Assembly (NCBI GenBank): GCA_945878705.1
Contig: CAMCUE010000012.1
Coordinates: forward strand, 1 to 12,541
Length of the DNA stretch: 12,541 bases
Direction of reading: 5' to 3'
DNA from: Ferrithrix thermotolerans DSM 19514
GTDB taxonomy: Bacteria > Actinomycetota > Acidimicrobiia > Acidimicrobiales > Ilumatobacteraceae
Shown: positions 10,316 through 12,541 of the stretch, one piece after another
Numbering within the stretch: position 1 is the stretch's first letter
Layout of the letters: the number at the start of each line of letters is the position of its first letter
Made by a program: the position numbers and the translations under genes
The notes under the pieces: generated by a model
Databases searched by the model: none
What the model saw: only the letters and a program-made list of their open reading frames with translations
Told to the model about the DNA's origin: nothing

Positions 10316-10615
10316 TTAATTGCCCAACTTATCAAGTAACTGATCTTGATGAATTTGCTGCTCAGCAATCTTGGCTACAAGGTGATCATGGTGGCGTTGC
10401 ATCGCTTCTAGATGTCGTTGCGCCTGGTGATGCTCAAGTGAGGCATCAGGTGTCTCAGCGACCATTGCCCTGATCTCTTTTACTTGAGCGTCGTCAACAA
10501 TGAAATCAAGTTGCTCTCTAGTAACTCGCAGATCATCGCTCAATTCACGAATTGTTTGAGTCCCCCGTTTGAGTCGACGCTCGACAAAGCGATCACTGAG
10601 ATTATTTTCAGTCAT
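10316..10615 (-). CDS. Small histidine-rich helical protein of unknown function
   Basis: I do not recognise a family. From the ATG at 10615 the product has 99 aa and no signal peptide, membrane segment or cysteine. The N-terminal half is charged and helical (for example RELSDDLRVTREQLDFIVDD), with a helix-turn-helix-like rhythm that I cannot confirm. After a TPD break at 55-57, a long helix, probably a coiled coil, contains seven His (62, 63, 68, 75, 76, 78, 89). Residues 68, 75 and 89 keep heptad spacing. An alternative ATG at 10639 would add eight residues but overlaps the candidate promoter; TACACT lies 7 nt before the chosen ATG, a leaderless arrangement. It ends 3 nt before pdtaR, so a role linked to that regulator is possible. 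The tight operon position and clean frame argue for a real gene. Confidence 0.7.
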   Translation of the reverse strand: MTENNLSDRFVERRLKRGTQTIRELSDDLRVTREQLDFIVDDAQVKEIRAMVAETPDASLEHHQAQRHLEAMQRHHDHLVAKIAEQQIHQDQLLDKLGN

Positions 10616-10622
10616 ATATATG

Positions 10623-10628
10623 AGTGTA
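10623..10628 (-). promoter_or_regulatory. Candidate leaderless -10 element for the small gene and pdtaR
   Basis: Minus-strand TACACT fits TANNNT and is followed by CATATAT and then the ATG at 10615, so RNA would start at or next to the start codon. The surrounding sequence is AT-rich. The tRNA ends only 22 bp upstream, and no clear terminator separates them, so read-through from the tRNA promoter is an alternative. Confidence 0.35.
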
Positions 10629-10650
10629 TGGATCAACACTTGGTGCTAAG

Positions 10651-10733
10651 TGCCCGGGATGGGAGTCGAACCCACACACCCTTTCAGATAACGGATTTTG
10701 AGTCCGTCGCGTCTGCCATTCCGCCACCCGGGC
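10651..10733 (-). tRNA. tRNA-Leu, anticodon CAA
   Basis: The minus strand gives an 83-nt class II tRNA. The acceptor stem GCCCGGG pairs with CCCGGGC. The anticodon stem ACGGA/TCCGT encloses the loop CTCAAAA, whose anticodon CAA (10700-10698) reads UUG leucine codons. A long variable arm follows, as expected for leucine. The T arm has a GTGGG/CCCAT stem with one G-U pair and the loop TTCGACT. The discriminator base is A, the leucine identity element. CCA is not encoded (CTT follows), so it must be added enzymatically. The tRNA is the first gene of the minus-strand series and faces away from fabD. Confidence 0.96.
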
Positions 10734-10741
10734 TTGCGCCC

Positions 10742-10799
10742 CTATCGTATCTAGTCAAGGTCTCTGCGATCGCCTTAAATTCTTCTACGATAGATACGA
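10742..10799. promoter_or_regulatory. Divergent promoter region with inverted repeat between tRNA-Leu and fabD
   Basis: The gap holds two perfect overlapping inverted-repeat pairs: CTATCGTA (10742-10749) with TACGATAG (10786-10793), and TCGTATCTA (10745-10753) with TAGATACGA (10791-10799). Each arm includes the -10-like hexamer TACGAT pointing outwards: minus strand 10749-10744, ending 10 nt before the tRNA, and plus strand 10786-10791, ending 10 nt before the fabD ATG. No good -35 boxes are visible. The repeat may simply reflect two similar promoters, or it may be a shared regulator site. Confidence 0.45.
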
Positions 10800-10801
10800 C
10801 A

Positions 10802-11977
10802 ATGCTTGCGTTCACGTTTCCTGGTCAAGGGTCTCAAAGACCGGGCATGGGTTTACCTTGGGTTGATCACGAAAGTTGGGAACTCGTTGACGAAGCCTCT
10901 GCGATCGTCGGGCGAGATGTCGGTGAACTTTTACTCACTGCCGATGCCGAAACTTTGAAAGACACACGCAATGCTCAACTAACTACTTTCGTTTCAAGTC
11001 TGATGGTGCTAGATGCTGTCGAGCGATTGGGCGTAGAGCCAACCCTCTGTGCTGGGCATTCGCTCGGCGAATATACAGCGCTAACTGCAAACGGCGCCCT
11101 CGGTTTTGATGACGGTGTTCGACTTGTTGTTGAGCGAGCAGCCGCGATGCACGAAGTTGGACAATCCTCACCAGGTGTCATGGCGGCTGTACTTGGACTT
11201 GAAGACGAAGATGTAGAAACAGCCTGTCGTCGTGCCGATAGCGATGTGTGGGTCGCTAATTTTAATGCACCTGGTCAAGTAGTTATTGCTGGCTCACCCG
11301 AAGGGGTCGCAATCGCAAGTGATCATGCCAAACAGTTGGGCGCAAAGCGCGTGATGGCATTGCCGGTTTCGGGGGCGTTTCACACTCCATACATGAGCGG
11401 TGCTCGCGATCGGTTGCGAGATGCGATTGCTCTTGCAAAACCGAGAGACAGCGATGTGCCGATCGTTTCAAATGTTGATGCTAAACCTCATCACCACGGC
11501 AGCGAATGGTCGACTCTGCTGTCGGCACAGTTATCAAGCCCGGTGAGATGGAAGCAGTGCTTACAAACGATGTCTGAAAACGGGATCACTAAATTCATCG
11601 AACTTGGTCCAGGTGGTGTTCTAACTGGAATGGCCAAACGCACGCTAAGTACAGCCCGCACTTTGAGTATTTCAACTCCTGATGAACTCGACAAATTAAT
11701 TGAATGGATCGGCGATGCAAAAACGCCGTCACCAGAACTGCATGAAGGAGAGCACCTTTTTGCTGTCGAACGTTTAGTCGTTAGCCCGAGCGCCGGCGTA
11801 TTTACTCCTCTGTCATCCTTGCACGATGGTTCACGAATTAAGGTTGGAGATGTTTTGGGGATGGTTGGGGGCAACGAAGTGAGATCGCTGTTTGACGGAA
11901 TTTTGCAAAACTTCATCAGTGTTGACGGCGAACGCGTCACTGCGCATCAGCCAATCGCCTGGCTTCGGACAATTTAG
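10802..11977 (+). CDS. fabD: Malonyl-CoA:ACP transacylase fused to a C-terminal biotinyl/lipoyl-like domain
   Basis: Moves malonyl from CoA to acyl carrier protein, supplying type II fatty-acid synthesis. The product has 391 aa, whereas FabD usually has about 300-320. The catalytic domain (1 to about 300) is complete: FPGQGSQRPGMG at the N-terminus, the nucleophile S87 in GHSLGEYTAL, R112 that binds the malonyl carboxylate, H194 in GAFHTPYM, Q243, and the late ELGPGGVLTGM segment. A Pro/Glu-rich linker (about 303-320) leads to residues 322-391, which follow the biotinyl/lipoyl barrel pattern (SPSAGVFTP, KVGDVLGMV, FDGIL, DGERVTAHQPIAWL). The hairpin that should carry Met-Lys-Met instead reads GGNEVRS, and no lysine occurs after K347, so it cannot be lipoylated or biotinylated in the normal way. 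Extending the frame upstream past 10802 would cross the tRNA and is rejected. fabH follows. Confidence 0.96.
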   Translation: MLAFTFPGQGSQRPGMGLPWVDHESWELVDEASAIVGRDVGELLLTADAETLKDTRNAQLTTFVSSLMVLDAVERLGVEPTLCAGHSLGEYTALTANGALGFDDGVRLVVERAAAMHEVGQSSPGVMAAVLGLEDEDVETACRRADSDVWVANFNAPGQVVIAGSPEGVAIASDHAKQLGAKRVMALPVSGAFHTPYMSGARDRLRDAIALAKPRDSDVPIVSNVDAKPHHHGSEWSTLLSAQLSSPVRWKQCLQTMSENGITKFIELGPGGVLTGMAKRTLSTARTLSISTPDELDKLIEWIGDAKTPSPELHEGEHLFAVERLVVSPSAGVFTPLSSLHDGSRIKVGDVLGMVGGNEVRSLFDGILQNFISVDGERVTAHQPIAWLRTI

Positions 11978-12011
11978 GTTGTATTAAGTGCCGATAATTC
12001 CCAAGACAGCT

Positions 12012-12541
12012 ATGAATGGCGTAATTACAGGATGGGGTCGAGCGTTGCCCGAAAAAGTTGTTACCAATAGCGAACTCGCAAAGACGATGGATACATCTGA
12101 TGAGTGGATTCGTGAGCGAACAGGCATTGAGCGCAGACACATCGGTGGCACGACAGCAAGTTTGTCGATTGAATCTGGTCGAAAAGCAATTGAGATGGCA
12201 GGCGTTGACCCTTTAACAATTGATGCTCTGATTTTGGCAACGACTACACCCGACAGAACTGTGCCCGCAACAAGCGCAGCAGTACAAAACGGATTGGGTC
12301 TTCGTTGCGGGGCGTTTGATGTGAACGCTGCATGCTCGGGATTTGTCTACGGTCTCGTAACCGCGCACGGACTGATTGCGATCGGCATGAAAAAGATTCT
12401 TGTAATCGGAACAGATACTTTGTCTCGCATTACAGATTGGTCAGATCGCAACACTGCAATTTTATTTGCCGACGGTTCCGGCGCAGCAGTCGTTGAAGCA
12501 GTTGACGGCCCAGGACAACTTCTGGGATGGGATATAGACGC
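12012..12541 (+). CDS. fabH: Beta-ketoacyl-ACP synthase III, 5' part only
   Basis: Starts fatty-acid chains by condensing a short acyl-CoA with malonyl-ACP. About 176 residues are present before the window ends; the full protein should have about 320-330. The N-terminus reads MNGVITGWGRALPEKVVTN, and the typical SDEWIRERTGI segment follows at about 29-39. The catalytic Cys is C108 in VNAACSGF (C112 in E. coli), and DGSGAAVV appears near the edge. The His and Asn of the active-site triad lie beyond the window. I chose the ATG at 12012 because it matches the family length; an in-frame GTG at 11988, about 9 nt after an AGG, would add eight residues and is a real alternative. The gap after fabD is only 10-34 nt, so the two are probably one operon that supplies and uses malonyl-ACP. 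Confidence 0.95.
   Translation, partial: MNGVITGWGRALPEKVVTNSELAKTMDTSDEWIRERTGIERRHIGGTTASLSIESGRKAIEMAGVDPLTIDALILATTTPDRTVPATSAAVQNGLGLRCGAFDVNAACSGFVYGLVTAHGLIAIGMKKILVIGTDTLSRITDWSDRNTAILFADGSGAAVVEAVDGPGQLLGWDID

Follow-up and report, generated by a model that had tools for sequence, protein, structure and literature searches.

The C-terminal extension of the FabD protein encoded in the window (the whole stretch of DNA analyzed here, 12,541 nucleotides) is predicted from structural models to be a selected barrel of the biotinyl/lipoyl kind devoid of the attachment-site lysine. The domain represents an independent gene family of Actinomycetota, found in certain lineages as a fusion to FabD. 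It is part of the FAS II initiation gene set, in the order fabD, domain, fabH.

The fused FabD and its C-terminal barrel

The catalytic part of the FabD (ACP S-malonyltransferase) occupies residues 1-290 (positions 10,802-11,671, forward strand). It matches TIGR00128 above the cut-off (282.8 versus 260.9 bits, profile positions 2-287 of 290) and Acyl_transf_1 with an E-value of 8.8e-38. Ser87 of the GHSLG motif and His194 of the AFHTP motif, which we take to be the catalytic residues, are invariant in the 34 rows of alignment A3. On the same strand follow a linker (residues 305-321, 11,714-11,764), the barrel domain (residues 322-391, 11,765-11,974) and the 5′ part of fabH (11,988-12,541), the usual downstream neighbor of the domain, inside which the window stops. 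The TIGR00128 match and the AlphaFold2 models thus confirmed the original prediction of a complete FabD prolonged by a linker and a C-terminal domain of about 70 residues. A tRNA-Leu (CAA) gene lies just upstream of fabD on the opposite strand (10,650-10,733, reverse); the long frame 10,484-11,977 overlaps it, which is mechanical only.

AlphaFold2 models and fold matches predict a barrel-sandwich hybrid fold for residues 322-391. Biotinyl/lipoyl proteins came out best in a profile search with the domain (2d5d, E-value 3.6e-6), with an efflux adaptor lower (4l8j, E-value 0.016), and structural match scores were alike for BCCPs and efflux-adaptor barrels, which the fold comparison does not separate. 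Profile, models and fold matches together support the previously proposed fold of the BCCP/lipoyl kind. The window domain itself scores below the Pfam cut-off of PF00364 (Biotin_lipoyl; 13.6 versus 22.1 bits). Membership in YqeB (TIGR03309) was rejected, the match reaching 24.9 versus 220 bits and covering only profile positions 162-212 of 256, that is 51 of 256 positions.

In the linker, residues 307-320 have a pLDDT below 50 in the AlphaFold2 model. It comprises invariant or nearly invariant alignment columns, including a conserved GE-L motif (G316, E317, and L319) also found before the barrel in the stand-alone relatives of alignment A4. Residues E317, E323, R324, R378, and W387 are invariant in all 53 rows of A4; the addition of distant classes (alignment A5) reduces the invariant residues to P, G, and G.

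A frameshift, a misassembly or the chance joining of a downstream ORF would also yield such a frame, and a check for a frameshift or a joined ORF had been set beforehand. The full-length fused frame is common to 24 of the 28 same-genus genomes, with one more copy split between contigs and no match in the other three. The frame is uninterrupted in 8/8 genomes of other genera of the family and at many loci of other families, and no intervening stop was seen in the genus. The same FabD architecture was indeed recovered among relatives, with fused frames across the family, the class, and also outside the class. Nothing was found in favor of an artefactual origin, to which we assign next to no probability.

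Within the genus, FabD has a median dN/dS of 0.047, from 54 usable pairs out of 300. The domain comes next at 0.065 (72/300 pairs usable), then the linker at 0.129 (58/300). These ratios are approximate because synonymous divergence is high (medians of 1.1-1.2 among usable pairs). The domain is under purifying selection. Its mean identity to five family relatives is 67%, against 76% for FabD. As relatives carry the same frame and purifying selection acts on the domain, the fused FabD is not an artefact.

The attachment site and the hairpin

Alignment with a BCCP revealed a lysine in the biotin column of none of the 159 distinct domains (103 fused and 56 stand-alone), which bears out the claimed loss of the modifiable lysine and rules out an ordinary biotinyl domain. 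The biotin lysine is likewise found in 0/120 of the proteins listed among the 536 stand-alone proteins matched in a database search. Many stand-alone proteins are named "biotin carboxyl carrier protein" by jgi, an annotation that is corrected by this result. In the window, the only lysine of the domain, K347 (11,840-11,842), precedes the hairpin, away from the biotin position, and is kept in four of 25 genus sequences, the window's own and its three nearest.

The hairpin of the window (residues 355-360, 11,864-11,881), flanked in the model by strands 351-355 and 358-361, stands at the site of the biotinylated EAMKM loop of BCCP. As originally described, it is shortened: in the alignment with BCCP it is four residues shorter than in the stand-alone relatives. 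These four residues are missing in 98 of the 103 distinct fused domains and in none of the 56 stand-alone ones, all of which keep the hairpin length, with mostly a glycine in the biotin column. The deletion is not the general outcome of fusion, since fusions of other lineages (L173, L177, L194, L195, and L242) retain a full-length hairpin.

An ordinary biotinyl domain is encoded elsewhere in the window's genome (EAMKM in a 434-aa frame), as is an EAMK-bearing one in 9/9 other genomes checked. The EAMK domain is situated close to the end of long frames, measuring 567-583 aa within the fetched pieces, the whole frames being mostly longer; judged by EAMK position and frame length, they may share the layout of a BC-BCCP chain. 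Because this ordinary domain exists elsewhere, acetyl-CoA carboxylase has no need of the lysine-less domain as a carrier. An unusual loop, E(V/I)MKSF, was also observed in small lysine-bearing BCCP-like proteins of other Actinomycetota (L270-L274), not adjoining fabD or fabH.

Spread, gene neighborhood and fusion history

The domain had been presented as a peculiarity of FabD. This description holds for the lineages in which the two are fused but not for the family, which is independent: elsewhere in the order, other families have the domain as a separate frame directly after fabD. In the class survey, 53 of 148 genomes matched the domain at E ≤ 1e-20, which is a lower bound because the weaker matches of G064 and G070 proved to be fused FabDs. 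At 1e-3 the tally rises to 117/148, most other weak matches being located in long frames that, by their length, look like ordinary carboxylases or E2 proteins. Across the phylum, a first profile matched 45/296 genomes at E ≤ 1e-9 and a broader one 98/396, some of these matches being ordinary BCCPs. A protein search with the bare domain as query gave 209 matches, of 59-151 aa among the 120 listed; many of them, on short contigs, resemble pieces of fused FabD and some are on long contigs. In 11 of the 148 class genomes (e.g., G054, G150, G063, and G106), several of them over 95% complete, FabD itself had no match at E ≤ 1e-20.

The gene neighborhood was analyzed for 163 distinct matched cores at 188 loci of Actinomycetota, 150 cores without lysine and 13 with. 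Directly upstream of fabH are 144 of the 150 lysine-less cores: 66 fused to FabD (fabH next in 66/66), 65 stand-alone between fabD and fabH, and 13 stand-alone before fabH alone. Three others come after fabD with no fabH next, two of these at a contig end; two directly precede a carboxyltransferase gene, and one has none of these contexts. The L179 match, a doubtful reverse frame beside unrelated genes, was counted as having none. None of the 13 fetched lysine-bearing cores occurs in a fabD/fabH context. Over the 171 loci with fabH downstream, the distance between alignment ends of domain and fabH ranges from -12 to 291 bases (median 38).

A universal partner of FabD was rejected as a description of the domain. 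At 12 of 20 further FabD loci, from many families of the class, FabD and FabH are 35-103 bases apart (alignment ends) with no domain between; three of the remaining eight hold the domain (L194, L195, and L201) and five have no FabH in the stretch. Since many class families have FabD followed directly by FabH, the domain is not a general requirement of FAS II. Genome G050 possesses a fused FabD gene and a second FabD gene lacking the domain (L038 and L039), and its unfused FabD could reveal what the domain adds. Three loci titled "MAG: Bifidobacterium breve" (L100, L130, and L160) carry the fabD-domain-fabH arrangement; the FabD of L100 groups with Acidimicrobiia relatives, those of L130 and L160 align with the window's, and the titles look wrong.

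A FabD tree of 101 sequences requires five changes of the fused state, gain and loss being undistinguished, and well-supported branches force at least two changes; this is a quick tree in which 39 of the 98 inner branches are drawn open. Outside the window's class, fused forms exist as well (L173, L177, L242, and L258-L260). None of the 191 domain loci shows a domain joined in frame to FabH, though fabH lies just as close as fabD. Fusion that recurs with a single partner is a classical indication of joint function.

Downstream of the domain, the genes run fabH-fabG-acpP-fabF (by Pfam at two loci and by BLAST elsewhere, where acpP often went undetected). The carboxyltransferase gene was called by PF01039 at two loci and elsewhere by BLAST to those two. 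At 30 of 31 stand-alone loci in the set from the window's class, it is encoded on the same strand no more than 4.3 kb downstream. Within this distance downstream of fused genes it was found at none of 35 loci in the class set and at neither of two from other classes; it was also found at none of the 11 other-class stand-alone loci having that much sequence. Among 20 later-fetched other-class loci, two of which are ordinary BCCPs, it is downstream within this distance at 11. These counts follow lineages, and the loci are not independent. At L091 and L178, the domain directly precedes the carboxyltransferase gene, with no fabD or fabH in the fetched stretch, which is the most direct hint of a link to acetyl-CoA carboxylase. 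Locus L091 (4427-6095) contains L067 of genome G196, which has no FabD match at E ≤ 1e-20. A universal linkage was rejected, the carboxyltransferase gene being absent near fused genes. Because it is absent near fused and some stand-alone loci, the link holds for certain lineages only and may reflect ordinary fab-acc clustering.

A putative docking module and its known counterparts

We propose, with about as much confidence as doubt, that the domain is a non-catalytic docking or assembly module of FAS II initiation. Through surfaces inherited from BCCP, the domain, either fused to the malonyl transacylase or acting as a small subunit, would connect this enzyme with a partner. The likeliest candidate would be acetyl-CoA carboxylase (its carboxyltransferase or biotin carboxylase part), otherwise FabH or ACP. 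Malonyl-CoA would then be made, loaded on ACP and used at one site. The domain would carry no prosthetic group, and the linker, for which disorder is predicted in the fused form, would allow the barrel to contact its partner independently of the catalytic part. We infer the physical contact from the conserved neighborhood. The initial idea of a docking or scaffolding role receives indirect support from the fabH synteny, the repeated fusion with FabD and, in some lineages only, the clustering with carboxyltransferase. Tentatively, these lysine-less BCCP paralogues might couple acetyl-CoA carboxylase physically to FAS II initiation: the pseudo-carrier would dock at the place of BCCP and hold FabD (fused in several lineages) and FabH beside the carboxyltransferase for malonyl-CoA to be passed on, as a bacterial counterpart of plant BADC.

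The domain could instead serve regulation, a reading that we consider rather unlikely. A pseudo-BCCP would take the BCCP site of the biotin carboxylase/carboxyltransferase or glue its subunits, thereby setting the rate of malonyl-CoA supply, and the fusion would link this control to the consumer FabD. It has a precedent in plant BADC, viewed as inhibitor and then as assembly glue (PMC11926652), and certain lineages have the carboxyltransferase gene in the cluster, in two cases immediately adjacent to the domain. However, no such gene was found near the 37 fused genes, and the EAMK domain resides in long, BC-BCCP-like frames, unlike the separate subunits of plants. A simple passenger, a fused former BCCP that merely stabilizes FabD without an interaction role, would be consistent with a domain that changes somewhat faster than FabD and is absent from sister families. 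Purifying selection on the domain argues against it, and passenger status is inadequate because the separate gene has been kept at the same place over several classes, so that we consider it improbable.

Equally improbable in our view is a ligand-sensing barrel that would bind a small molecule, such as acyl-CoA or an acyl-ACP product, and adjust FabD or FabH. The charged and aromatic residues that are invariant in A4 in the absence of a cofactor, as well as the position inside the FAS II gene set, fit this function, but nothing in the analysis points to a pocket and barrel-sandwich domains of such size are not known to act as acyl sensors. Much less credible still is a domain that remains a carrier, modified on another residue. 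Its fold is that of carrier domains, and two of the 103 fused domains and 11 of the 56 stand-alone ones do have a lysine no more than seven columns from the biotin position; such lysines nevertheless have no constant position and are never in the biotin column, while lysine is entirely absent from 66 of the 103 distinct fused domains and from 30 of the 56 stand-alone ones.

FAS II is commonly seen as a set of free enzymes. The conserved, unmodified carrier-like module described here, encoded between fabD and fabH and fused to FabD more than once, offers a concrete way to ask whether FAS II is coupled to acetyl-CoA carboxylase in bacteria. The fold, the FAS II cluster, and the lysine-less BCCP relative each have a precedent; their combination, its spread, and the repeated fusion with FabD were not found described, and our search of the open-access literature yielded no account of this family, which is weak evidence of absence in print.

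Compared with known proteins, the N-terminal 282 residues are an ordinary FabD (TIGR00128), to which the window protein adds the C-terminal linker and domain. Relative to BCCP (PF00364; 4hr7/1bdo from E. coli and 2d5d from P. horikoshii), the domain lacks the biotinylated lysine and any AMKM-type motif, has a shortened hairpin in the window's form and sits within fabD-fabH. YqeB, RnfC_N, NqrA_N, and the HlyD/RND adaptor barrels are other proteins of other pathways. The nearest functional precedent would be plant BADC, an analogy that makes no claim of membership. In PMC11926652, BADC proteins are described as BCCP relatives with 25-30% identity and no biotinylation motif, which bind BC and BCCP and were first viewed as inhibitors, later as ACCase assembly glue. 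Likened by that description, both are BCCP relatives without the biotinylation motif and tied to malonyl-CoA supply, whereas the domain is bacterial, shorter, and located within the FAS II genes or fused into them.
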